Source of the DNA: Lepraria neglecta
Taxonomy: Eukaryota > Ascomycota > Lecanoromycetes > Lecanorales > Stereocaulaceae
Direction: 5' to 3'
Assembly (NCBI GenBank): GCA_033220425.1
Contig: CM065648.1
Location: forward strand, 620,001-684,000
DNA: 64,000 bases
In this document: piece by piece, positions 19,144 through 37,396 of the stretch
Position numbering within the stretch: the first letter of the stretch is position 1
Layout: each line of letters opens with the position of its first letter
Notes under the pieces: model-generated
What the model was told of the DNA's origin: nothing
Databases searched by the model: none
The model's input: only the letters and a program-made list of their open reading frames with translations
Made by a program: the position numbers and the translations under genes

Positions 19144-20072
19144 TTGTTTCATGAAAGCTCGCGAAAAGGAAAGAGAACAAGGATAAATGGAGATAAAAGC
19201 TACAAAAATAATGCGCGATAATCTTAGTAGGGACTTTGAAACTCGACAAAAGTCCCTGAACAGTGCCTTATACTAATGTAGTGGTAAACCGGCGTTTACA
19301 TTGTCGATTTATAGCTTAGCCGATCCAAGTCAAAGTCCTTACAATGTTCGGGCTACTTAAAGTAGCTTCCACACCAGCTCTTTTCGGCTACTAAAACACG
19401 TTAACCGAGATACTATATGTTATTTGTTTGCAGATTTTTGGCTCCTCAGAACTTGGCCTCCCATTGATAGGGAAGTGTGGCTGGTACAGCCCTCCGCTGT
19501 GGCAACGCAGATACCCCGGATTGACACCCCTCATCACCAGATCATGCTGTCCTTTACCCGATGCATTAATCTCTAAATCCGGGCGAGGCGACTGCTCACG
19601 TCCGCGACCTTCCTTTCCCTCATCGCATCAAGCGGGCTTTGAACTTTTGCGTTGTTATCACAACTGCTTGATCGCTGCGCGCCTGCAGAACGCTGTGTCC
19701 ATATTGCATTCCAGCCGCTTTCATGACCGCTACATCAATAGTCCTGCTTTCACAGACAGAAAATGTTGCCAGGGCTAAGATGACCCTATTCTTTAAGCAA
19801 CTGGCAGGCATGTACCCAAGGTCCAACTCGTGCACGTCAGCACGAAGTAGCAGGAGGGTTCTAGCGCCATGGAATACGCGGTGCGAAGTCTCTATGGCTA
19901 GTGTAATACGAATCTTGACCAACGGTAAGATAGCATTCATCATTACCCTAATCGGTTCTGCCTCCTTGTATTCAACGAACGAAGCTTTCTCCGACATCTC
20001 TATAATTTGTCACGTTGTTGTCAACTTCATGTCCCTTTCTGGCTTGCAAACGCTTCCCATGGTAAGCAATGA
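19144..20072. other. No supported gene
   Basis: Open frames of 116-128 codons occur on both strands over the same bases (19428-20109). Neither shows a domain, a codon bias I can see, or a signal peptide. I regard them as chance ORFs. Confidence 0.5.
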
Positions 20073-21263
20073 TCAAAGCCCTTTAACAATCTCTCTCTGC
20101 GGAATGTAAATATCATACGACCGTGCACCACCCGGCTGCATCCAATGCTCCATCCTAACCTTCTTCGCCGAGCCCCACTCACCGCACCTGACCCTCTTCC
20201 AGTACCCCCCAACTCTATCCAAGAACAAAACAATAGCCCTCAATTTTCCCTGTTGCATTGTCCAGCACTGAATCGTCATTTCAACGACTTTGTTCTTCGC
20301 CCCAAAGAAATGCGAAGGAGTTTTGTTTTCAACATCCCACACCAAATAGAGCGGAGCCGGAAACCTCAGACCCTGACCCGTCATCTGATAAGCTGCTCGA
20401 GTATAGGAAATCTTATCTAGCCTCAGCATAACATCGCCAGAATATCTAAAGCAATCCGGCCACGGGGCCAACAATCCCGAACTTTCAAACTTCTCTAATC
20501 TCCAAGCGAAGATCGATTCATCAGAGCTACTGCCAATGATCATCTCCTGTAGCCTCACAAACGCTTTCTTCCCCTCCCCATACCGCAGATCCATATTGAG
20601 ATCAAAGATCCCCAGCATGCAGTACGCCATATCCTCCTCCTCAGTCGTTGTTCTATCAGCCATCCAACTCATTTTCTGCGCGATATTCGCGCGGCGGAAA
20701 TCCCTCAGATGCTCAGGGGATATCCTCGTCGCCCTCGAAATCAATGGTGTGAGCTCGCTCCGCGATCCGAGCGGCTCCCAATTGGCATCAAGGAATAGAA
20801 TTGAGCGCGAGGCGAGCATCTCCTGCAGCGTCCAGCCTCGTTTGAACCATTCGCTGTTCTGGATCGCGCCGGCGACCTCGCCTTCGCTCGTGTTTTTGGC
20901 ATCCACATCTGCGAGGTGCGCAAAGCAAATCTGGGCGCCTTCGTACCATTTGAACATGGAATTGATTGACCTGCTTAACTCGGTGCTGTTCGTCTTGTCG
21001 ATGCAGCAGGTGTCGATCCAGATCCATTCTAGGCCTGCTTTCCTCGCTTGAGCGCAAGCATGGGCGATTTTGGAGGCCCCTGCATTCTTGTCGATGGCTT
21101 CACGTAGTAGCCCATCATGGAAGTCATCTTTCGGTGTGTCTGTGAAATTTTGGTATGAGACTTCGTGCTTACCCCATCTGTGAGAGAGTATTGCATAAGG
21201 TGGAGTTTGGTTATGACCAAATTGGTCTTGCTGCTTGAATGTGTTCACGTCGATGAGACGCAT
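20073..21263 (-). CDS. HET-domain protein
   Basis: This is an intact intronless frame of 396 codons from an ATG reading MRLIDVNTF. An open extension upstream starts only with TTG. Heterokaryon-incompatibility landmarks appear in order: PPYAILSHRWG at residues 22-32, a GLEWIWIDTCCIDKT block near residue 85, SINSMFKWYEGAQICFAHLAD near 100-120, and EWFKRGWTLQEMLA near 140. A MAYCMLGIFDLNM-type segment and an YGEG motif close the domain. HET proteins take part in non-self recognition and programmed death of fused fungal cells. The C-terminal 150 residues have no domain I recognise. It is the only clearly intact gene between the two duplication copies. The short leader before the HET box is typical for the family. 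Confidence 0.9.
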   Translation of the reverse strand: MRLIDVNTFKQQDQFGHNQTPPYAILSHRWGKHEVSYQNFTDTPKDDFHDGLLREAIDKNAGASKIAHACAQARKAGLEWIWIDTCCIDKTNSTELSRSINSMFKWYEGAQICFAHLADVDAKNTSEGEVAGAIQNSEWFKRGWTLQEMLASRSILFLDANWEPLGSRSELTPLISRATRISPEHLRDFRRANIAQKMSWMADRTTTEEEDMAYCMLGIFDLNMDLRYGEGKKAFVRLQEMIIGSSSDESIFAWRLEKFESSGLLAPWPDCFRYSGDVMLRLDKISYTRAAYQMTGQGLRFPAPLYLVWDVENKTPSHFFGAKNKVVEMTIQCWTMQQGKLRAIVLFLDRVGGYWKRVRCGEWGSAKKVRMEHWMQPGGARSYDIYIPQREIVKGL

Positions 21264-21278
21264 TTTAAGCACGATCAA

Positions 21279-22335
21279 GAATAATAGCTACTACGTGAAA
21301 GAAGGAAGCTTCAGATTATTTTTTGAATGAAGAGGCGACGTTTGTTACGGCGCTGGCCTGCCTTATGAGCGCTGACCTTCCATGGTCTTCTACCGCTAAC
21401 CCTATTAGGCCTAGCCCAGGGGCTGCCGCAGCCGCCCACCTATATAGATCCTTCGTCGCGCCCATATGGCCTTCCTTAGATTCGATATCCTAGTCTATTC
21501 CACCCCTATGACTTGACTCTAGGCGACACCGTGACAACGTTGTTATAGTAGGCAGATTCCCAAGCCGGACTAGATGCAAGCTCCGGGAGCTAAACCTGAA
21601 GGAATAACAAGCTAGCTTTATTAGGACTAGTTCCCCTGTTTAGGCTGTCTTGCCTGACAAGCCGTGCCTGCAACTGGGCCGAGTCTGTATGGTCCGTATT
21701 GTGGCGCAGACAGAATTCAGCCTCGCGTGGCTGAGTTTCCGCCTGCCCATGACGCAGTAGAAGCAAGAGCTGCTGTTAACATTCGCATGCCTTCATTCCA
21801 AGTATGGATACAACAAGCATAAACATAGCATCGGAACGTTGCGATTTGAATACCCTGCATTTTTATTTTCTACTAAACACCAGCCTAATTCTCCAAGACT
21901 AAGCCTCAAAATCGTAATACTGAACAATACTCTTCCAACCCAGATGCCTTGATCTCACGCATAACACGTTCCAGCTCTTCCATTCGTGATTTTCTGCTTT
22001 TCACCCGGGGCAAGGTTTTAGCCCTTGCGACGAGCTGTCTTCGTGTCTATTATAGTGGCGTCTATAAGATCACGCTTCCTCTGTGCCTCAATAATGTCCT
22101 CGTAGGTCATGACTTTGGCGGTGCCTGTTACAGTTGACCTAATGGTTGATTAGGTTCTGTTCTCGTTATTTCGCTCAAACAACTTGTTTTCGTCAAGGAG
22201 AATATCACGGTCGGCAAAGGCATTCTCTGCAGTATCAGGCAGCTTCTGGAATCGATGTTTACAAGGAAAATTTTCCGTCACATCTACGGCATAAAATCCC
22301 CTTATAAAAGTCCCTAGGGGACTTAATCCCCTAAG
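21279..22335. other. Repeat-like intergenic sequence
   Basis: No gene is supported. The part from 21350 to 21700 is rich in CTAG and TpA steps and reads like a partly RIP-affected repeat. A 62-codon frame at 21949-22137 has no visible features. Confidence 0.4.
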
Positions 22336-25843: not shown

Positions 25844-26398
25844 ATGGCGCAAGAATCCTACACATCAAGGAGGCTTTCTTCTGGACGGCGGCATACATCA
25901 TACTGCTGGCTTACGACTTCTGCTCGGGGAGGATACGATTTCTCGTGTATCGGCAGATACATACCAGAATCAGAAACATCTTCCTCCTATAGATACAGTC
26001 GATACTACGATGAAGACCAAGTCTAGTACTACTAGCACTTTCTCGATATCAACGGGCATGTCCTTTGCAGGTAGTGAGTGGGCTATTGCCTGTGAAGGCG
26101 GCAGTGTCAGTATTTCTCGGTCTACTATCACTACAGTGTTCGACGGCAAGGAAGAGAAATAGATGTCGAAGATGAGAGGACTGGAGTGCCTCGCGAGGTG
26201 AGAAAGTGGAGAGAAGCGTTGGCGGCAGGAGAGCGCAATGAAAAGCAGGTTCCCGAAGAGGCTTTGGCGGATCTGGAGCTGGTGAGTGCATTACTTGTTT
26301 TACGGCTGAGTGAGGAGCTGACGTTTGCATAGCTTGAAAAAATGTTGAGGAGCGGAGAAGCTAATGGACAGCCGATGGATTCTAAATTGCAAACCTGA
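25844..26398 (+). pseudogene. Hypothetical protein, probable broken spliced gene
   Basis: The last part is gene-like: a frame with REIDVEDERTGVPREVRKWR and NEKQVPEEALADLE, then a good intron at 26282-26332 (GTGAGT, GCTGAC branch, GCATAG), then EKMLRSGEANGQPMDSKL and a stop at 26398. Upstream, a serine-rich stretch (TSSSYRYSRYYDEDQ, then SSTTSTFSISTGMSFAGS) changes frame near 26016 and again near 26155 with no obvious introns. It may be a decayed gene or have introns I missed. No family recognised. Confidence 0.4.
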
Positions 26399-26454
26399 CT
26401 GACAGTATGCTAACAGCCCATCTAAATGTACATCAAGCTTCACACACTCCCTCA

Positions 26455-26845
26455 CTATGCCTTTCCATCCGGCATCGCCTCCATGCTTCCCCCAGACTCT
26501 CCGGCCTGCTCGTTCTTGCTCTCGTACACTCTTGGCAACTTCTGTCTCAACGCTGGTAGGTCTTTGCAGAGCGGACAGTCCTTCCTATTGACCCCTCATC
26601 GAGAACATCGAAGCACGGGAACCGCTACATGCGTACTTCTCCTGGCTCTCGATGGTGATACCATCGCGTATGATCTTGATTTGGTGTTTCTCGTCGATCG
26701 GGGTGAGGAGTCTGGGCATGAAAGGTTGGAGAGGTTTCAGGCAGGCTTCGGGGTGGGCGTTTAAGTAGAAATGACAGTGGTTTATTGGTTTGAAGAGGTA
26801 TTTGCATTTGCAGGTTTGGTAGTGATAGTAGCTTTGTAGGCACAT
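26455..26845 (-). CDS. Small Cys protein, MC-CxC-CPxC family (member 1)
   Basis: The protein starts MCLQSYYHYQTCKCKY, with Met-Cys and then CxC at residues 12-14, and carries CPLC at about residue 73. The frame ends early at 26585 unless an intron is removed. A 52-nt intron at 26585-26636 (GTACGC to CAATAG) joins the frames in phase to give ESQEKKDCPLCKDLPALRQK. The product is 112 residues with a stop at 26455. The layout equals that of 28687-29214, 33934-34296 and 34699-35133 although sequence identity is low. The paired cysteines suggest metal binding, but that is inference. No signal peptide or transmembrane segment is visible. A 112-codon plus-strand frame covering the same bases has no such support. 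Confidence 0.6.
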
Positions 26846-27019
26846 GGTGGTGGACAGATGCTAAAGAAGTTGAGCCTGGAGAATGTCAAGGTCCTGTTGG
26901 GTTTGTTGTTCTCGCTGATATTGGGTGTCTAGAAGCTTACCTGGGTATGGTGTTTGGTAATCAAGAAGGCGAGGTAGTTAAGGGCATGGTCGGATGAGCG
27001 AACACTTTATACCTGTGAT

Positions 27020-27187
27020 ATGACTCACGAGCATCAGGTGTTATGCTCGGGCATATTTCGATACGAAAACTTCTGCTACTTCGGAGACATTCTGGGGTGT
27101 GAGTCGGACTGTGTCGACTGTGGTACACCGGACGAAACAGCGCTCATTAAGCTATTTGAAAGAACGAAAAGCATTTACCTGCATTGA
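27020..27187 (+). CDS. Cys-rich small ORF
   Basis: This is a 55-codon frame from an ATG reading MTHEHQVLCSGI, followed by a dense cysteine stretch NFCYFGDILGCESDCVDCG. It has five cysteines, a C-x-x-C pair and charged ends. An in-frame Cys-Asp precedes the ATG, and a TAG lies about 60 bp upstream. It could be the last exon of a larger gene. It has a cysteine pattern like its neighbours but no clear homology, and it is on the opposite strand. Confidence 0.3.
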   Translation: MTHEHQVLCSGIFRYENFCYFGDILGCESDCVDCGTPDETALIKLFERTKSIYLH

Positions 27188-27313
27188 ATTATGAATTGAA
27201 ACGAAAATGGGAAAATGATAATGGCCCAATGGTTGACTGGACTAGAATGGGCTGATCGAAAAGCTACCGAGATTGCTTAGACCTTGAACTTCACAAAGCC
27301 AAACTTGATATCC

Positions 27314-28157
27314 CTACGATTTGTCCCCAGTGGTGCCACCATTCTTGAGCAGTGATTGCTCATGGAGCTCGTTCGACAGCACGTCCATAGCCTCGTCCAC
27401 CGTATCGGCTCGATTGACAGTCCTTTGCAATTCCCTCAATGCGGTATACTGCTCCCTTGCCTTCTTGATATCCGTCTCCCTTAGGTCCTCCTCCTCGTCG
27501 ATCCTTGGAATGGTATTGTCCCATGTGCGGATCTTTTCCTTGTTCTTCAGACCCCATCCCAGCGCCAAGTTTATTCGCGACCCCACGATATCGTGCCAGC
27601 TCTCATGTCTGGCAGCCACTTCGATCATCTGCTGCTCCTTGCCAGCTGCCGTCCAGGGAGATCTTCTTTGGATGAGATCATCCGCATCTCCTACGCTTTG
27701 AGCATGCCGTGCCATCTCATCGAAGTACTCGTTCATGTCGATTCTGCCGCTTCTATCAGCATCGCCTGGATGGCTTTGCCGATGTTCCTCGGCTGCAGCA
27801 GCTACAAGTTCGGGATGGTCGTCACAGAGTGGGCAGCGACCAAGTTTTGGGTCTTGTGGGCCGTGCGCACTGTCACTGGGAACTGTTGAGTTGAGATTGA
27901 AATCCTCACAAGTACGGTACTGATCGCTCCAGTCGGGTAGTTTCTTGTAGCTGTGGATGAACGTTTCGTCTTCCGCGGTATCCACATGTTGCAGGGTGCC
28001 ACACTCGCTTCCATACGTGATGAACCTCGGCTTGAAGGTTTTGAGGAGGCTAAGATTTTCTGTCTTGTTTTCCTTGAGGAAATTACGGGCAGTAGTCTGG
28101 TGGGTTCGATACACTGATTCATCCGCACGGACGGTATTCGAAATTGTGGAGGCACAT
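27314..28157 (-). pseudogene. MC-CxC-CPxC family member 2, one N-terminal frameshift
   Basis: The start ATG at 28157 reads MCLHNFEYRPCG and then meets TGA. A second frame begins within a few bases, ADESVYRTHQTTARNF, and stays open for 266 codons to 27314. It contains RCPLCDDHPELVAAAAEEHR, the CPxC motif, and then a long charged tail that includes EKIRTWDNTIPRIDEEEDLR. A single-base change near 28122 separates the family-type N-terminus from the body, and no intron fits. It may be a recent frameshift, an assembly error, or translation may begin elsewhere. The tail is much longer than in members 1, 6 and 7. No family outside this cluster recognised. Confidence 0.5.
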
Positions 28158-28686
28158 GATATTGGATTCGATAGAGGTGATGTGTATGAGACAAAGGATT
28201 CTTGGCTTGAGATGTTGTTTGAATAGTAGTAGGTCTATGAGTGAGATGGAGAGGAAGGATAGTAAGAAACTGTGTCTCCAGAATCTCTGGGAGCACAAGG
28301 GTCGGTGCTTATGGCAAATGTCATAAGGTCATCTGAACAAAAAGCCGAAACCTTCGCCTGTGCGACTCGATTGGGGCATTAGCCACAGACGCAAAGACAT
28401 CATGAGACCCAGATAGAGCACATGGACCAGTGATAAGATTCATTTTGAACATGGGATACTAAAGACGACCGAAACAGGAGGACTAGATGGGAAATTGAAT
28501 TTTGACTATCAAGGAAGGCACTACTCTAGCTAGAGAAACAAGTTAGGCATTTACCCTCTGATATCAATGGCCAATACTGGCAAGGAGAAAAAGTGGTAAC
28601 GAGCGTCCTAGGTGATGAGTTTGATCGAGCCGCCCAAATGACAAGTCATCTGCATTGATGGTAGTCGATATATCAATACTTTTATT
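28158..28686. other. Intergenic, no feature seen
   Basis: No frame with recognisable protein features on either strand. It separates two family members that share orientation. Confidence 0.4.
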
Positions 28687-29214
28687 CTAGCGTGCGTATT
28701 TGCGCAACGTCCTCGGCTTCCAATTTGGCTCATCAGGCTTGTTCGGCTGGGTAATCTTCTTCAAAATCTTCTCACCCTTCCCCAACAGGCTTTGCTCCCA
28801 TTCTCCTTGCTTCTTCTTCGCCATTTCCCTTGTTGCCTTGATTCTCCTCCTAGCCGCCTCCTGCTTCGTCCATTCACGCTCCTCCATCAGCAACCAATCG
28901 TGCCAGGGGCACTTGTTTCTGATAATCCCCTTAGAGAATACCTCGCCCTGACATCTCGGCCAGAGCAGGTCTCGATAGCTGTGTTGGGTGACGACTCGGT
29001 GCAGATAGCCGTCCTGGCAAACTTGGAAATTGTCCTCGCTGGACAGATTCGGCATTTGCGTCTCGTATTTTCGTCCTATGACCACGGTGCGGATCCAAGG
29101 TCCTGGCCTCGGCCCACCTTGAGCTTTGATGATTTCGGGGCAGTATTGCGGCTCGTGTTCGAATAATTCGCAGCCACATGACTTGTAGCGAATGAGATTT
29201 AGACGTCGGCACAT
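28687..29214 (-). CDS. MC-CxC-CPxC family member 3
   Basis: This is an intact single-exon frame of 175 codons with an ATG start. The N-terminus MCRRLNLIRYKSCGCELFEH has Met-Cys and then CGC at residues 13-15, followed by PQYCPEI. The C-terminal pair is altered to CPWH near residue 103. The tail is strongly basic: EEREWTKQEAARRRIKATRE followed by MAKKKQGEWEQ, likely helical. It has no signal peptide or membrane segment. By position, strand and N-terminal motif it belongs to the tandem family. If CPxC is a metal site, this member has His in place of the second Cys, which would still be compatible. Confidence 0.65.
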   Translation of the reverse strand: MCRRLNLIRYKSCGCELFEHEPQYCPEIIKAQGGPRPGPWIRTVVIGRKYETQMPNLSSEDNFQVCQDGYLHRVVTQHSYRDLLWPRCQGEVFSKGIIRNKCPWHDWLLMEEREWTKQEAARRRIKATREMAKKKQGEWEQSLLGKGEKILKKITQPNKPDEPNWKPRTLRKYAR

Positions 29215-30059
29215 TGTGATGCTTTTGATTTTGAAGTGAGGAGTTCCTCAGCTTTCAGACAACTACTCAGGGGAAATAACGATGATCTCCGCCAGGTTTG
29301 TCTTTGGTAAATTTATTTAAGCCAAGGGAGCTATATTGTTCATATATTGTTGGAAATCCTTCAAATGTTATGAACAATGGGCTTTCACAACAAAGGTCGG
29401 GCTCCAAATATGAACAAAAGAGAATCAAAGGGATAAGCGTCGACATTGTCTTCTGAATGAGGTGATACACTCCCAATTAAAGACCCGCAATTCCATTGTG
29501 GCAATGTGGCATGGTAACACCAACTTCATGCTTTTTGAGCTATTCTTGGCACTGATGCCTGGAGAATGAGGTTATCGGAGAACAATCAGCGTGATGCTTA
29601 TGTAATTGTCTCACCGAAATACTGCGGGATTAAGCGACTGTTTTTGCTTATTGCTCTTTCTCTTCCTTGTTCAATTCTTTTGCCATCATCATCCAAATAC
29701 CTGGTTATGTTCGAAACTCTTCGAACACCGAAGGTTGCACCGAATGGGGAAATATGACCAACCAAACAGGTGGTCTAGTTCTTCGACCTGCAGGTTCTAG
29801 CTGAAATATCCAGATCTCATGACAATATCCGACATTGTGCTACTCGCTAATTGCAAGCTTGTTAGTGTTGATAAGGCAAGCTTTAGGCAATTTGGCGGTG
29901 TCACTCCTCAATATCTTGCTTTTCCTTGACGAAACCTGGAAATTTTTTGACCACTGACGCCTTTCACAGAGTTTAACAACATCATAGGGTCTTCAGTGGA
30001 GGCGATAATACGCAAGGGGTCCGATGAGTGGATTGTAACGGCCGTAAGGCGTGGCGTCT
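29215..30059. other. Intergenic, no feature seen
   Basis: Short frames of 62-69 codons on both strands lack support. It presumably holds the promoter of member 3 (minus) and of the plus-strand gene at 30060. Confidence 0.4.
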
Positions 30060-30806
30060 ATGCGTTGTGCCTTCAAAGACTCGGTCATTTACTTCCCCTT
30101 TCGCAACAACGTCGCTCATAACACACCTTTCCTTGGCCATTGCTTTTCTATTTTTCCATTCCTTCCGTATGGAGACCTTCATTTATAACACGCCTCCGGC
30201 TATGGATCCTGGCAATGCTACACAAATATTCAACTTCTGCGTCTCCTGCTTCTTTTAACTCCTTCCCTCTTTGCCCACTGCAGCTTGTCCATCTCCACAA
30301 ACATCACACTCAAATACAACACCTCCCAAATCAACCGTCTTGACCAACGCCATGGCAAAGAAATCCATTACAAAGCAAAGCCTGGTCTCGAATCCAGCAT
30401 TCTCTTTAAGCTATGCGTATACTACATCTATCTCACCGATGACACCGACAACATCGACGAAGACCATAAAAAATTCGCTTCCGCCTTCATAAAGAACCTC
30501 GCGGGTATGTTCAGAGCCAACGGCCAAGTCACGGCAACCTATCAATATCTGCATGATGTAAAGCACCCATCGTGGTTAAGAGCCAAAGACTTGAAGATCG
30601 AGAGACCAAAGCAGCGTAAAGTTTTGCTCCTAGACAGAAATATCCGTGGAGATGCTAATTCAATTATTGTAGTAAGGTCCATCCTAAGGGATGAGATTCA
30701 GCTACCGGAGGAACAATGGAATCGACCGGTCATCCAGCCTGTGGCACCAACGGCTCAGTTGAGGTCGCCGGTCGAGAAGCCGGCCGGGCAGCAGAGATGG
30801 CGATGA
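30060..30806 (+). CDS. Hypothetical two-exon protein
   Basis: The large exon from 30284 is open for 174 codons, but its track-like start is only a TTG. A 117-nt intron at 30167-30283 (GTATGG start, TTTAACTCC branch region, CACTGCAG end) joins it in phase to an upstream exon. That exon starts at an ATG at 30060, reads MRCAFKDSVIYFPFRNNV and lies directly after an in-frame TAA. The predicted protein is 209 residues. Visible segments are QINRLDQRHGKEIHYKAK, VYYIYLTDDTDNIDEDHKKF and a basic PKQRKVLLLDRNIRGD. It has no Met-Cys start or CPxC, so it is not part of the Cys family, and it lies on the opposite strand. I do not recognise its family. The exon 1 choice is tentative. Confidence 0.45.
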
Positions 30807-31038
30807 AAGAGATTGTATCTTTTGGTCAAAAGCATGCACTATGAATCAGATTAGACCAAAACATGAAACAAGGGGGAAAGAGTTTTTGATGAATGCGAAT
30901 ATTTCCTCTTAAAGTATACAGAAAAGATCACAGATCAGATTTGACCCAGATTGCATCCTCTACCTCTACAAAAAGCTTGGCTACGTCCGGGCGACCTGTC
31001 GTCAGCATCTTGTTCTTCCTCAAGTACCTGAATTCTGG

Positions 31039-31560
31039 CTATAGGACTGCATATTCTGCACGTATGGGCTCAAAGCGCCACAATTCTAAGTAGATGCATT
31101 CGTTTTTCGCAGTGAAAAGAGCATTATGGAAACAAGACTCGTCCGCAGATGCTGCGTGGATAAGGTTGTTTGCCTCTCCCATCATATCATGTATTCTAGT
31201 CCTGGCACCCATTGGTCCAAATCCTTCAGGTGGCCACTTCACACCCACCACTTTCGGGGAGACGGATTCTAATACGGTGGCTAAGTCAGAGACTTTTTTT
31301 CCCTGTCCTTTGTTCGCCTTCTGCTCACCGAACGTCTTCTTCAGCTTGTTTTGTACAACCCTACCAATTCAGACTGGGCACATGATTCCTGACTGCTCAG
31401 GAGGCTGAAGTTTAAGATTGGAACAAGCAAGACCTTTATGCATTATTTCATCATACACATTAACAATTTCATAATTAGCATGTTGCACAAGTAATGTAAG
31501 CATCTGCTGTTGCGAGGGAGCAAGCATTCCATTATGCAAGAATACACTTGTAGGTCCACC
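31039..31560 (-). pseudogene. MC-CxC-CPxC family relic (member 4), C-terminal half with in-frame TGA
   Basis: From right to left the frame reads YEIVNVYDEIMHKGLACSNL, then GIMCPV followed by TGA where the family's second Cys would be (TGC or TGT to TGA). It resumes in frame with IGRVVQNKLKKTFGEQKANK, and an IRAEYAVL end leads to a stop at 31039. KGLAC corresponds to the VPKGxxC words of members 7 and 8. The N-terminal Met-Cys and CxC half is not recognisable upstream. A single nonsense codon in the CPxC motif makes it non-functional unless read through. Confidence 0.5.
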
Positions 31561-31656
31561 ACGAAGAATCTGATTCTACAGACAACGCCCCATTCCGAGT
31601 CATCAAAGTATCACGAAAGTTCCACCACGTCCGCCCCTTTGTCTCTCAATCGTTCG

Positions 31657-32378
31657 TTACTCGGCGGCTAATATCCTCTCCTTCACCAATGACTCTAGTC
31701 TCCGTCGCATTTCTGGGTCATCACACACGAGGCAATGTGCTTCCGGTATATCAGACCTTAGTGTGCTCACTCCTGAAGCTATACACACCGGCACAAGTGG
31801 ATATGTAAATAGATGATTGGGCGGTCCAACGCCAGGGCTAGCAAGCCTAGAAAGGCCACAACAGGTGCCCCAGCGCTAGAAGACTCCCAGGCCTAGGCGG
31901 CATAGACCTGGAGTGTAGATAGGCTATATATAGGCTATGTATAAGGTGCGGGTGGGCGGGAAAGAACTTCTCTGGCTCTGAAAGAGATGAACTCGACTGA
32001 AGAGCCAACTGCTGGTGGGATGCTCATATAAATAGTACTCTCAGGAACCACGGATCTCTCGCTATGACCCATGGTCATGGCGCATGGCTGAAACAGCGTC
32101 TGATCATGAGACACACTAACCCACAGTCCCACTGTAGCGATGAGTCCTGGGTCGTTCGAACAATTAAGGTGCTCCGGTACGATGTTATCGTCAACACTCT
32201 TGGTAACGAAACGAACACCATCAACTTCGTAGTCAAACGCACAATCAATGCCCTGAAAGTCCTCGATAATGAATTTGGGTTTGAAATTGATATCCTTGGC
32301 GGGATGTTTGCAAGCAAAGATATGCATTACGTGCTTGCATCCGCAATTACGGTGCGGGATTCAGAAGACTCAGCACAT
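31657..32378 (-). pseudogene. MC-CxC-CPxC family member 5, split by a repeat insertion
   Basis: The 5' half begins ATG TGC TGA GTC TTC TGA at 32378, with stops at codons 3 and 6. It then reads NCGCKHVMHIFACKHPAKD, DYEVDGVRFVTKSVDDN and VPEHLNCSNDPG, ending at about 32144. The 390-bp repeat follows. On its far side the frame continues with PEAHCLVCDDPEMRRRLESL and VKERILAAE to a stop at 31657. CLVC is the CPxC position and the following charged helix matches other members. Removing 31757-32144 brings the halves together at the expected spacing of about 12 residues between the Cys of HLNC and CLVC. An ORF of 130 codons running from the 5' half into the repeat is an artefact of the insertion. 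Confidence 0.65.
31757..32144 (+). mobile_element. 390-bp dispersed repeat, low-RIP copy
   Basis: This is the inverted counterpart of 10503-10892. It carries CACACTAA-type and TTAGTGTG-type words near its two ends, possible short inverted termini, although homology to the other copy extends about 27 bp past one of them. The interior has a TATATGAG/CTCATATA box and a TATATATAGGCTATGTATA stretch. It has no coding capacity. Size and lack of coding suggest a MITE or a solo LTR, and the class is not settled. A three-base AGG occurs at both flanks and may be a target-site duplication. Confidence 0.7.
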
Positions 32379-32649
32379 TATGGCAAAATACTAAGAGAGC
32401 AGCAAGGAATTGAAAGATGGGCTTGAGAGAAATCAGGCCTGGAATTATCTCAACATATAAGTGAGATCTCCTTGCAAACTCATATGCAACTGCAAGGGTC
32501 TTAAGGCAAACAACCTCGACGAAAATACACGAGAAGGTGGAAGTATCCCGTTAAACCGCCGGTTTGGAGTCATATTGGAGCAATCATGGCTACCATCTAC
32601 TCACCAAGAATTTGATAAAGCTGCCGATAAACTGGTATTGTCCCGTCCT

Positions 32650-33110
32650 CTATTGGTTTTGAGTGACGCTGACCACGCCCGTATCTTCCGAACTACTACT
32701 CGAAGCAGCAGAAGCCTGTTCTGCATCCAGAGCCGTCATTTCAGTAATCTCGCTGTCTTCCTTGGCCTCCTCTTTGGCAGCCTGCTTGGCCAACTCCGCA
32801 TCAATTATCTTCCTCCCCTCAGGATCTTCACAAAACGGACAAGTTGCGCCGACTGGGGAGGGTATAAGAACTTCCGCGATATTAGAGTACTACAGTACCT
32901 TCGGAGCTTTCCTCATATCAACGTCAGGACTAACCATATCGATATTGGGAAGGCGGATATCCAGACCCTGGCGTTCTGGGGTAAGCAATTTTGCGAAATA
33001 ACTCTTCTCATGCACTACAGGATAGTTTTGGACATAACGAAGGCAGTATTCAACATATCCCCGTGAATACACTTGCAACGCTCGAATCCGTAGGCGGTTC
33101 TCCCACACAT
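32650..33110 (-). pseudogene. MC-CxC-CPxC family member 6, frameshift and stop
   Basis: The start ATG at 33110 reads MCGRTAYGFERCKCIHG, an excellent family N-terminus with Met-Cys and CKC at residues 12-14. A one-base frame change near 33063 leads to VEYCLRYVQNYPVVHEKSYF, then LDIRLPNIDMVSPDVDM and RKAPKVL. A TAG falls at the position corresponding to the Cys of the family's VPKGxxC. The same frame then continues with PVGATCPFCEDPEGRKIIDA, the CPxC motif, and an acidic-serine tail ending TQNQ at 32650. Two lesions make it a pseudogene. Confidence 0.6.
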
Positions 33111-33466
33111 TGTGGCCAGGTGCTGGACACTTGATCAAGAAGAAAGCGTGGAGAACGTGCAAGCAAAGGTACTGATAGATGTGTCAAATGCTTTGGCAAA
33201 GATGTGTTGTAATTTTGGTCATTAACACATAACCCCAAAGCTGGATTGTGGTTTATACAACCTCATTGTTGTGGACACGTGCCGTAATAAGAGACTCGTA
33301 CAAGGGAGGTGGCCGATGCCAAATACTAACATGCAAATGCAAAATTGGAGTAACACTATCTTTCCGATCTAAGTTTGCTTAGGGGTATGGCAAAAGAAAT
33401 TGTTACAGTCATCTGATTGTTCATCAGGAGTGGAGAACTTGGTGGCCGAATCAATGAATTCTTGAG

Positions 33467-33760
33467 TCACTTACTTCTTGAACGTCGGATATGGCCCTTG
33501 TATCTCTCATCCACGACATGCCATCTATATTGCACTTCAATTTCATTTTCCAACATATCTACTCTGAATGGTCCGCCAGCTATACGAAGGTCATCATCGC
33601 ACGACGACGACGACACACTAAACCTGTTCGAGGTTTTGAAAACTCCTCTGTCGAACGTCTCGCACTCAAATGGGCAAGACCATAATGGTTTGTGGCATTT
33701 CTAGTGGCTTGGCGTCAGTTATATTCGTGAAAGGCTTTGTTTACGGATTTCCGTTTTAGG
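33467..33760 (-). CDS. Possible spliced Cys protein
   Basis: An exon at 33467-33700 reads KCHKPLWSCPFECETFDR and continues to VQYRWHVVDERYKGHIRRSR and a stop. It is preceded by a convincing 44-nt intron at 33701-33744 (GTAAAC, TAACTGAC branch, CACTAG). The upstream exon reads VHLTPNVLKRKS but I see no start codon, only a TGA. The C-x-H and C-x3-C pattern suits a small zinc-type protein. It lacks the Met-Cys start, so membership in the tandem family is unproven. Confidence 0.3.
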
Positions 33761-33933
33761 ACGTTAGGCGTCAGGTGGACATTTCTTCAACCCTAATAAA
33801 GTAATTACTAGTAAGCATTCACCCTTTCAAACCTTGGCCTGCCAAAACACCATTATGTGGCTTTATCGCCAAATTCGACAATGATGCGATCTACGGGTCA
33901 GGTAACGTTCTCAGAACATTCAACACTGTGATC

Positions 33934-34296
33934 TTATCCATGACATTTCCTTTCTCCTTCCAGGATAACTCCAACTCCCAACGCGTCCAAAGCCTTCAAA
34001 ACCCTAGCATTCCCACAAAATGGATAATTCTCAGCAAATAAATACTCCGCCAACCTGTCTGTCTTGCAAGTAATTCCTTTAGGTAAAACGGAATCACAGC
34101 CTGATTCCAACTTATCCCAGCTAACACCATGAACGCTATCGATCTCAACATCCATGCCCTTTCGTGTATCAGTGACGAATATGGGCATTACATCGGTCTT
34201 TTCTTTCTGGAATTTGGCGGCGGGACAGGGCTCGAAGTTCTTCAGGACGATTCGACAGCTACAATGTGTATATAATTGTATGGATATCTTGCACAT
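33934..34296 (-). CDS. MC-CxC-CPxC family member 7
   Basis: This is an intact 120-codon frame with an ATG start. MCKISIQLYTHCSCRIVLKN gives Met-Cys and CSC at residues 12-14. PCPAAKF follows, then the central KGMDVEIDSVHGVSWDKLES region and VLPKGITC near residue 80. The C-terminal motif reads NYPFCGNARVLKALDALGVG, so the first Cys of CPxC is Tyr here. Members 8 and 9 share the centre (EIDGVDYVS) and the VPKG-x-x-C word. The missing Cys weakens a simple four-Cys zinc model. No signal peptide or membrane segment. Function unknown. Confidence 0.65.
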   Translation of the reverse strand: MCKISIQLYTHCSCRIVLKNFEPCPAAKFQKEKTDVMPIFVTDTRKGMDVEIDSVHGVSWDKLESGCDSVLPKGITCKTDRLAEYLFAENYPFCGNARVLKALDALGVGVILEGERKCHG

Positions 34297-34698
34297 TGTG
34301 AACGAACTTGAGGCAGTTGCCGGTTGAGAGGTGTCTAAGATTCAACACGGCGTCAAAATAGGAGGAGTCTGGCCGGATACTTGAACAATGCGGATAGGAA
34401 GCTTCTTTTATCAAACCCATCGGATTGCAGTGCTGAGACTGCTGCTACGCAAATGCTAAGGTAGAGATCCCAGGCGAGAATGAGGCGAGAACAACCGAGA
34501 ATGTTTGCTTGAATGCTTCTTTCGAGCCACGAGTTGGAATCCATTAATATCATCCGGCAAGCCGCTAGAAAAAGTAGGAATCTCTTGGACTCAGTGACTT
34601 GGCTTGCTTCATAAACATAGCTTTCTGATTGACTTGAACTAGTTCAAGGATCACTGCTGAAGCGGAAATATCCTTGTGCTTCGACGGCAATCATCCCG

Positions 34699-35133
34699 CT
34701 AAGTACACCAACGACTCCAGCAATGCTCCAGATTCTTCTTCGCATCATAAGTCTCCATATCCCTAGTTCCTCTGCCGCCATATGAAGACACCACATTCCG
34801 TTCAACATTCATTTCCCTCAAAGTCTTTAACACTTTGGCATTTTCACAGAGTGGACAAGCTGTATGCTGCGGCTCATGTCGTACTTCGAGATTCCTGCAC
34901 GTAAAGCCCTTCGGAACGTACGGATAGCTTAAGTCAACTTTGTCTGAGCTGACGTAGTCGACGCCGTCGATTTCTTTGCCGAGGTTTTTGCTGGTGAAGG
35001 TGAGGAACTTGGCTGTGAAGACTTTGTTCTCGTTGTTGACGTGAGTGTCGAGGAAGTCGACGCAGGGGTCGCCTTCGTTGCGGGTATATATGCAGTCGCA
35101 GTGCTCGTATCCATGGATGTAGATACAACACAT
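34699..35133 (-). CDS. MC-CxC-CPxC family member 8 (best preserved)
   Basis: This is an intact 144-codon frame with an ATG start. It holds all family marks: MCCIYIHGYEHCDCIYTR (Met-Cys, then CDC at 12-14), GDPCVDF, KNLGKEIDGVDYVSSDKVD, YPYVPKGFTCRN and HTACPLCENAKVLKTLREMN. I use it as the reference for the cluster. Eight cysteines occur, four of them in the two motifs. It has no signal peptide. The nearest relatives are members 7 and 9 on either side, which suggests tandem duplication. The tail after CPLC is short and ends WSRWCT. Intracellular metal binding is plausible but is inference. Confidence 0.7.
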   Translation of the reverse strand: MCCIYIHGYEHCDCIYTRNEGDPCVDFLDTHVNNENKVFTAKFLTFTSKNLGKEIDGVDYVSSDKVDLSYPYVPKGFTCRNLEVRHEPQHTACPLCENAKVLKTLREMNVERNVVSSYGGRGTRDMETYDAKKNLEHCWSRWCT

Positions 35134-35434
35134 CGTAGCAAATGTTCGAGGGTTTCTGGAGAATTGGTTAGATCCCAGATGTTGAACGAAGGCTGCAAAG
35201 AATATACGGAGTAAGTTGCCAGTGTAGGAGTATAGAGAATTTAGTTTACATGATGATACATCCTAGTGCTACAACACAGATAAGACGCCTCTTGACTAGT
35301 ATAGTACAACAACTCAAGCTAGACACGCAAGATCAATGGATATGTTTTGTCATTCGACACGCATTCTGAATCACAACCAAAGAGTCACTAGATCATTATC
35401 AATCACATGTTCTACTGCCGGCATAAGCAGCTAT

Positions 35435-36062
35435 CTAGTCGACAACTTGAGAGATAGTAACATGAGCCGTAGAACGGTCATCGACTCTATCTTTGTCCCT
35501 TCCCACTGCAGCATTCAAAGGTGAAGAAGCCGGTGATGCTGCGGAAGCGATCGATTCAGCATTCCCAACATCTCCGTTCTTCCCCTTTGAGGTGGGCCCT
35601 CCCTGTTCAGTCAACAGCGAATCCGAAGTCTCATCATCTCCCGTTCCACATGTGCCAGCTTCTCTCCGTTCAGCCCGCCGCTGTTCCGCCTCTTCCCGTT
35701 CCTCCGCTTCCTGTAGAGCCAACAAATTTGCATCCAACTTCTCCACCAACATCGCATCCAACCTTTCCTTGCGCAGCGAATCACCGCAAAACGGACAACT
35801 TGCAATCGACTTGACCCACATCTCCCTAACTTTTTCACATGGAAGGCCCTTTGGGACGTGAGTATGATCCACGTCGCGGCTTACAAAGTCGGTGCCATCG
35901 AGTGGGAAGCCTAGATCCTGCCGCAGGGTAGTGATGAGTTTAGGGTTGTAGTGCGTGTAGAATGCCTCGGGATGATAATTTAGGAGATCAGAACAGAAAA
36001 CATTTGAGGTCAACGTAGATGCAGTTGCAGTTCTCGTAGCCGTTGAGGAAGACTCAACACAT
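35435..36062 (-). pseudogene. MC-CxC-CPxC family member 9, nonsense and frameshift at the N-terminus
   Basis: The ATG at 36062 reads ATG TGT TGA GTC TTC, a stop at codon 3 where member 8 has TGT. It then reads LNGYENCNCIYVDLKC, which keeps the family CxC. Within 30 bases the frame changes, and an open frame of about 190 codons follows to 35435. It contains LRQDLGFPLDGTDFVSRDVD, THVPKGLPCEKV, SIASCPFCGDSLRKERLDAM and a long Glu/Arg-rich coiled tail. The body is well preserved and so recently coding. An unseen upstream exon could bypass both lesions, but I found no good splice sites. Confidence 0.55.
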
Positions 36063-36495
36063 TTTGGCCGGATGTTGGAAGGCTTGCTGATGATATCGAC
36101 GGAAAAAGGGGACGGTGTGAGGACGTCGGCACAAGCTCAGAGGGATCCTTATATCCTCATTCTCGGAACGCCTTGTGAACATTTTGACAACGTAAGCAAA
36201 CGCGAGAATACTGCCAAATGTTTGACTCGGCGCTCTTCCGAACCATGAAAACAACATCATTACAATCGTCTAATTATCAATCCTCTTCGAACGATGCCGC
36301 ACTAATTCCCCTCTGACAACAATCCAACGCCATCTCTTCCCATGGAAACACTCCGGCGCCTGGTATACCGCTAACAAGATGCGAAAAACTTCCCATCTTC
36401 GAATTCCGCCTTTTCTCCAGGGAGTACCGTATTGCCGTACAAACTTGACAAGATGCCTGGTCTTAAACCGAAAGAGACCGCCAAATCGAAACATT
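36063..36495. other. Intergenic, boundary of the Cys-family cluster
   Basis: No gene is supported here. It separates the accessory cluster from the conserved gene block and should hold the promoter of member 9 and the 3' region of the E2 gene. Confidence 0.4.
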
Positions 36496-37396
36496 TCAAA
36501 GGAGAATCTTCCTCATGACCATGAACGCCAAAGCTGCCACAAGCGCCGCGATAACTTTATCAATCCAAGCAGGTACTCCGCCCGATTGGGCTTGATGTAT
36601 CGGGGGAGCCATTCGCATTTGTGGTTGTGCTGTAGGGGGGACGGAGATCATATGTGTTGGTTGGAGAGCTGTCGATGACGAGGACGCTGGCGGTACTGTT
36701 GCAGCTGTTGAAGTCCCAGCTGTGGAGGCCGTGACGGGCGTCGTCTCGACTGGAACAGATGTAGACGTAGATTGAGATTGTTTCTCGTTCTCCTTTGCAG
36801 CCTCTCCACCTTCAGCTTTGGCCATCTCATCCCTAAAACCAAACTTCAGCTCCTCAGGCACTTCCTGCTTCCCCTCTCTCTCCTTCGCCTCTCCGCCCTC
36901 CTCTTTAAGTATATCCTCATTCGTTCTGCCTCCACATCCCACACACCGCCAGGTCTTAGACTCCCCCAGCCAACCTCTCCCTCTCCACCTTCCCCATCTC
37001 CATCCCCCCAACCTGCCCCCTAGCATCCCCCTCCATAAACGCCCTCAACGCCCAAAGCGCAGTCCTAATCCCCCAAGCCGGCTGCCACGTCTCCTCATGA
37101 TGCCCACTTATTGACAAACAGATCTCCCTATTAACCTCAAAGCGTCCACTGGGCGTCAAAAACCGGAACGAAGGCGGGCGCAAGGGGTAGGTAGGCGGGA
37201 GAATAATGCGGCCGTGGTAAGCGCCTGTGCAGTAGGGGGTTGAGGGGGGGCCGCGGAGGGTGAAGTGCCATTCGAAGAGGTTGGAGTCGAGGGGGGCGGC
37301 GTGCAGGGTGGGATCGGGGTTGGAGGAGAGCTCGGAGGCTTCCTTTAGGATGCGTTTTATTGTTGGGGATTTGGTGTTGAATGTGGGGAGGGCCAT
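36496..37396 (-). CDS. Tail-anchored ubiquitin-conjugating enzyme E2 (UBE2J/Ubc6 type)
   Basis: The first frame, from ATG 37396, reads SPTIKRILKEASELSSNP and FEWHFTLRGPPSTPYCTGAY. It then has the E2 core TPSGRFEVNREICLSISGHH with the catalytic Cys in ICLSIS and ETWQPAWGIRTALWALRAFM after it. This is the pattern of UBE2J/Ubc6 enzymes, which act at the ER in ERAD. The frame ends at a TAA in AGGV. One base of shift at the GGGGG run near 36964-36968 joins it to ESKTWRCVGCGGRTNED. A Ser/Thr/Pro-rich linker follows, then the C-terminal membrane anchor WIDKVIAALVAALAFMVMRK. No intron fits. I treat the shift as a homopolymer error or a recent mutation. The product would be about 300 residues. Confidence 0.8.

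Follow-up and report, generated by a model that had tools for sequence, protein, structure and literature searches.

The question raised by this locus is what kind of family is represented by a run of small, cysteine-rich frames, some uninterrupted and others broken, on the minus strand of contig CM065648.1 (C3 hereafter) of Lepraria neglecta. The window, i.e. the whole stretch of DNA analysed, comprises 64,000 nucleotides (C3:620001-684000) of a 42.0-Mb genome in 11 contigs (GCA_033220425.1), and positions given without a contig name refer to the window. Herein, we propose, with a probability of roughly 0.6, that the array is an unnamed tandem family evolving by birth and death, whose proteins are intracellular and probably bind zinc.

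Eight minus-strand Met-Cys starts were identified using a motif scan and stop-to-stop translation (36062, 35133, 34296, 33110, 32378, 29214, 28157 and 26845, after which the units are named), and together with an orphan C-terminal scrap at 31372-31575 these make up the nine units counted in the earlier note (Table 1). The starts are spaced 0.7-1.3 kb apart in two runs, from 36062 to 32378 and from 29214 to 26845, and the tandem copies show 23-36% protein identity to 35133. A cysteine at residue 2 is present in all eight units with an N-terminus, partly by construction, as the start pattern requires it; the frames found by protein search (29214, 34296, 35133, C3:734594 and C3:735660) likewise start with Met-Cys, which provides independent support. 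A CxC motif within residues 12-15 follows in seven of the eight, and 28157 instead carries CG and then a stop. Of the single layout that the earlier note ascribed to all units, the Met-Cys start and, with one exception, CxC were thus recovered, whereas the EIDGVDYVS-like centre and the VPKGxxC word are limited to five or six units and are lacking in 29214, and the supposedly universal C-terminal CPxC is replaced with YPFC in 34296, CLVC in 32378 (C-terminal piece CLVCDDPEMRRR, at 31660-31757) and CPWH in 29214. The motif scan of the window returned 11 places, namely seven units and four others, of which 31735+, 36652+ and 28423- are taken as chance and 55220- as part of a CCCH-finger frame; unit 28157 was picked up in the stop-to-stop list, outside these 11 places.

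Two types of unit are distinguished. Type A (35133, 34296, 36062, 33110, 32378 and the scrap) carries the EIDGVDYVS-like centre or VPKGxxC. Type B is represented by 29214 and two frames of a second cluster on the same contig (C3:734594 and C3:735660), located 85 kb away on the opposite strand, with the order MC, CGC, third Cys, HR, Cys and CPxH. A whole-genome search with 29214 recovered these two frames at E values of 1.6e-11 and 2.3e-10, respectively, and the alignment of the three sequences contains 22 invariant columns, including C2, C13, C15, C25, C88, C102 and H105.

Table 1. Positions of the array units and associated features (MC, Met-Cys start)
Feature	Type and state	Position	Strand	Remarks
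Unit 36062	A, broken	35438-36062	minus	ATG TGT, then TGA at codon 3
Unit 35133	A, uninterrupted, 144 codons	34702-35133	minus	Full layout: MC, CDC, C24, EIDGVDYVS, VPKGFTC, CPLC
Unit 34296	A, uninterrupted, 120 codons	33937-34296	minus	YPFC replaces CPxC
Unit 33110	A, broken	32653-33110	minus	Stop at codon 32 of the ATG frame; different frames hold the centre and CPFC
Unit 32378	A, broken	31660-32378	minus	Codons 3 and 6 are stops; interrupted by the 383-bp repeat
383-bp high-copy repeat	In unit 32378	31758-32140	minus	5'-TC; 3' hairpin, then CTAA
Orphan C-terminal scrap	A	31372-31575	minus	KGLACSNL...CPV, then stop; 3/500 shuffles vs 35133
Unit 29214	B, uninterrupted, 175 codons	28690-29214	minus	MC, CGC, YC, HR, CPWH, charged C-terminal helix
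Unit 28157	Probable, weakest member	27317-28157	minus	Stop at codon 13 of the ATG frame; a long coding-like frame carrying CPLC follows downstream
Unit 26845	Links types A and B	26458-26845	minus	MC and CKC within a frame of 86 codons; CPLC in a different frame
NPHP3_N and ankyrin frames	In pieces (NLR-like)	C3:731007-733793		Directly upstream of second cluster

The similarity among the units exceeds chance, and the family is real. A profile of three type-A members was run on 8208 six-frame fragments from 210 kb surrounding the window; decoys were obtained by reversing these fragments once and shuffling them four times. In leave-one-out runs each of the three training members was recovered (E values of 8e-16, 1e-12 and 5e-8), and pieces of 26845, 33110 and 32378 scored 23.1, 21.3 and 15.3 bits, respectively, compared with 9.9 bits for the best decoy. 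Scores near or below the decoy level were obtained for the N-terminal piece of 36062 (10.2 bits), the C-terminal pieces of 33110 (10.1) and 32378 (6.7), and the second-cluster frame c734594 (9.6). Single-sequence searches of the whole genome connected 35133 with 34296 (E value of 1.6e-8) and with 36010 (frame 35438-36010, within the span of unit 36062; 7.3e-6), and 36010 with pieces of 33110 (1.9e-8); the query 34296 returned only 35133 besides itself, and the long frame of 28157 only itself. Pairwise shuffling was applied to 11 pieces chosen by eye in 55 comparisons, so that an isolated value of a few per 500 represents modest evidence. No shuffle out of 500 reached the score of the 36062 N-terminal piece against 35133 or of either of two 33110 pieces against 36010; the C-terminal piece of 32378 (4/500) and the scrap (3/500) were also supported, the C-terminal piece of 26845 less so (9/500), and support for unit 28157 was weak, at best 18/500 for its 12 N-terminal residues and 14/500 for its long frame. 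The frame at 31042-31368 received no support from shuffle comparison with the units.

Candidates for further members on two other contigs, C7 (E value of 8e-4, with internal stops) and C4 (0.24), were rejected, as no Met-Cys unit was seen in the frames inspected around them. Outside C3, no further unit emerged when the whole genome was searched with 26845, 34296 and the 28157 frame, although single-sequence searches are weak and distant members could escape them. None of 28 pattern matches for type B in viral contigs, and none of 70 for type A in prokaryotic contigs, was confirmed.

In this assembly, homologous copies lie next to one another in uninterrupted and broken form, and one is split by a mobile repeat, in agreement with the birth-and-death family suspected in the earlier note. 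Three units are uninterrupted from the Met-Cys start, namely 35133, 34296 and 29214. The first two belong to the four units previously considered intact, and 29214-28687, the longest of all, had been omitted. The other two on that list fare differently: the frame at 35435-36013 is open and lacks a Met-Cys start, the ATG at 36062 lying in a different frame that stops at codon 3, and the frame of 26845, with its first stop at codon 87, reaches past 26588 only under the assumption of a 52-nt intron. In unit 36062 the ATG frame encodes the CxC region, and a second frame, open to 35438, encodes the centre, VPKGLPC and CPFC. A hidden intron was rejected for 36062, 33110 (best 42 codons) and 32378, as none of them is opened by a single GT-AG intron within the limits applied (40-130 nt, donor GT[AG]NG, acceptor [CT]AG). 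A selenocysteine reading of the in-frame TGA was also rejected. Units 36062 and 32378 share TGAGTCTTC right after ATG-TGY, resulting in an identical stop at codon 3. Over the first 45 bases, 36062 is nearer to 35133 (35/45) than to 32378 (27/45) despite this shared stop.

Two processes by which copies might be broken were considered. First, unit 32378 is interrupted by a 383-bp repeat. Searched against the whole genome, 346 bp of this repeat gave at least 40 places including that in the window, the other 39 at 96-97% identity (40 of 199 candidates were scored). The ends of nine other copies examined fall within one base of the same positions, and no target-site duplication was detected by eye in the ten copies. 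According to one report (PMC5148889), non-autonomous elements of the Helitron1 type begin with TC and carry a 3' hairpin 10-12 nt inside a CTAA end. The repeat resembles these elements in its 5'-TC, 3' hairpin, CTAA end and lack of a target duplication by eye, and is tentatively regarded as Helitron-like; the label remains tentative because its hairpin stands directly at the CTAA end rather than 10-12 nt inside it. Second, repeat-induced point mutation (RIP) has marked an AT-rich island from position 1 to about 14500, which continues leftward and ends between 13 and 16 kb, about 12 kb from the cluster. Segments of 2 kb from -4999 to 15000 showed TpA/ApT ratios of 1.40-1.71 and a substrate index ((CpA+TpG)/(ApC+GpT)) of 0.25-0.69; between 1001 and 15000 the latter lay at about 0.37-0.66. 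The corresponding values in the type-A cluster (31340-36100) are 0.71 and 1.26, similar to those elsewhere in the window, away from the island, and the composite RIP index is negative in all eight units (highest in 35133, -0.27, and 33110, -0.26). Because the indices of the cluster equal those of the rest of the window, the breaks are not RIP scars, and RIP was rejected as their cause. Short copies with only 23-36% identity are consistent with escape from RIP.

The family is unnamed in the libraries searched, and its mode of evolution is ordinary. No Pfam-A match above the cut-off was obtained in ten pieces (eight from the window and the two C3 homologues; best 15.1 bits, cut-off 22), the scan leaving out the 36062 N-terminus, the 33110 centre, the 32378 and 26845 C-termini and the scrap. 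Sequence searches of the PDB gave one non-significant match for type A (E value of 0.91) and none up to an E value of 1 for type B, and the two Rfam matches in 26000-37000 were both under the gathering score. Among the literature matches listed, no paper was recognisable by its title or the start of its abstract as describing this family. The array proteins resemble unnamed fungal proteins with a Met-Cys start, a CGH/CGC motif 10-13 residues on and a C-terminal CPxC-like cysteine pair, and membership of that group is treated only as a lead.

Spaced cysteines are conserved, yet the YPFC and CLVC variants are present. Metal binding, presumably of zinc, is plausible from the spacing of the Cys/His pairs: one or two structural zinc sites are probably formed from Cys2, the CxC pair, the cysteine near residue 24, a later cysteine and the C-terminal CPxC or CPxH, and the charged helix after the C-terminal pair could bind a partner. 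A CPxC knuckle followed by a helix recalls zinc-ribbon and zinc-hook folds, although only the frame at 35438-36010 matched zf_Rg (14.0 bits, cut-off 25.5) and Rad50_zn_hook (13.4 bits, cut-off 24.3), and then with one half-site. The proteins are probably intracellular: hydrophobins, for example, are secreted, whereas inspection of the N-termini by eye revealed no hydrophobic leader, and charged or polar residues with cysteines from residue 2 were seen. Class II hydrophobins (PMC2253510) are likewise small proteins with conserved cysteines, eight in number, under birth-and-death evolution, and the cysteine spacing in the array proteins is other than this eight-cysteine pattern.

Three groups of results weigh against the family as proposed here. 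First, it is chiefly 26845 that ties types A and B together; this unit scored 15.0 bits with c734594 in addition to its match with profile A. Profile B gave 34296 and 26845 only 6.5 and 6.4 bits, under its best decoy (9.3 bits); the whole-genome search with 26845 returned only itself and c734594 at an E value of 0.67, and the second-cluster frames found each other at 0.022 one way and were unlisted in reverse. The types might thus be two unrelated cysteine-rich families, neighbours by chance, in which the Met-Cys and CxC start is shared by chance or convergence. The different centres, the failure of profile B to recover any type-A unit above decoys and the score of c734594 just below the best decoy of profile A speak for such an origin, and it is nevertheless unlikely in view of the position of 26845 between the types and the common order of MC, Y, CxC, third Cys and CP-x-C/H on one strand of one array. 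The union of types A and B in one family is likely but not proven, because no type-A unit stands out from the decoys with profile B.

Second, the division into uninterrupted and broken copies is not firm throughout. Two of the broken units could be spliced genes, as the assumed 52-nt intron opens 26845 for 112 codons and an assumed 79-nt intron with a poor donor opens 28157 for 254 codons, both without a branch-site match; frameshifts could be partly assembly errors; and the CPxC pair is degraded in 34296, an uninterrupted unit. A coding score was derived from the codon usage of six long frames in the window; of 12 pieces, 8 scored highest of all six frames in the expected one, the exceptions being 32360, 29214 (a near tie), 26845 and c734594. 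We doubt that the array is mostly a dead relic, with drift and no expression even in the three uninterrupted frames. Of the nine units, at least four are broken copies or scraps, with a further two undecided, 26845 has a low coding score (0.008, with a median near 0 for 211 frames), and YPFC in 34296 would suit decay; on the other hand, open frames of 120-175 codons retain the spaced cysteines, and the expected frame is top of six for 35133, 34296 and 36010. The uninterrupted copies are probably expressed.

Third, no confident fold was predicted. AlphaFold models built from 6 (35133) and 4 (29214) window sequences had a mean predicted local distance difference test (pLDDT) score of 35.7 and 49.2, respectively, with values below 50 over residues 1-98 and 1-101, i.e. 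nearly all cysteine positions, and only the C-terminal helix of the 29214 model was confident.

The function in fungal conflict suggested in the earlier note, considered here as a fast-evolving family in allorecognition or defence, whose copies are kept or lost as opponents change, would be compatible with the birth-and-death family proposed here and is quite improbable. An open reading frame with a HET domain (20073-21278) lies 5 kb off the array, and the second cluster adjoins NPHP3_N and ankyrin frames, an NLR-like locus; broken copies and strong divergence among tandem copies would also fit. However, HET-domain matches number at least 150 across the 42 Mb of the genome, approximately one per 280 kb (150 of 196 candidates were scored, with two rows for some genes). 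Because of this base rate the HET neighbour is unremarkable, and it was set aside as evidence for conflict; together with the NLR-like frames it leaves the suggested role unsupported. Moreover, no Pfam domain above the cut-off was present in the pieces scanned, and selection is hard to test at such divergence. Many of the genomic HET matches contain internal stops, and the HET repertoire is large. The 2-kb stretch at 19390-21441, which contains the HET-domain frame, is 98% identical to C2:4674564-4676623; it bears no RIP marks and overlaps a high-copy repeat at about 21372-21548. The neighbouring genes include UQ_con, a TFIIIC B-block protein, a DHX29-type helicase, POT1 and HIT/zf-C2HE; together with the HET repertoire and the RIP-marked island, they suggest a filamentous ascomycete. 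The UQ_con gene (ubiquitin-conjugating enzyme, 36959-37396) is the closest Pfam-matched gene upstream of the array. Finally, it is very improbable that the Met-Cys start is itself functional, with Met removal exposing an N-terminal cysteine as a metal ligand or an oxygen- or redox-sensitive degron and the array encoding short-lived sensors, and a literature search combining N-terminal cysteine, N-degron and filamentous fungi returned no paper.

We return to the tandem birth-and-death family as the preferred reading. Small intracellular proteins of about 110-175 residues would arise by tandem duplication; local duplication would make new copies, divergence may carry these copies beyond the reach of RIP, and copies would be lost when stop codons or frameshifts arise or a mobile repeat inserts. 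The locus presents a family with no Pfam match above the cut-off and no PDB sequence match in turnover within a RIP-marked genome, and a span of 10 kb holds copies that are uninterrupted, broken in frame or split by an element. The array could be a small test case for the survival of short, diverged duplicates beside RIP-marked DNA.

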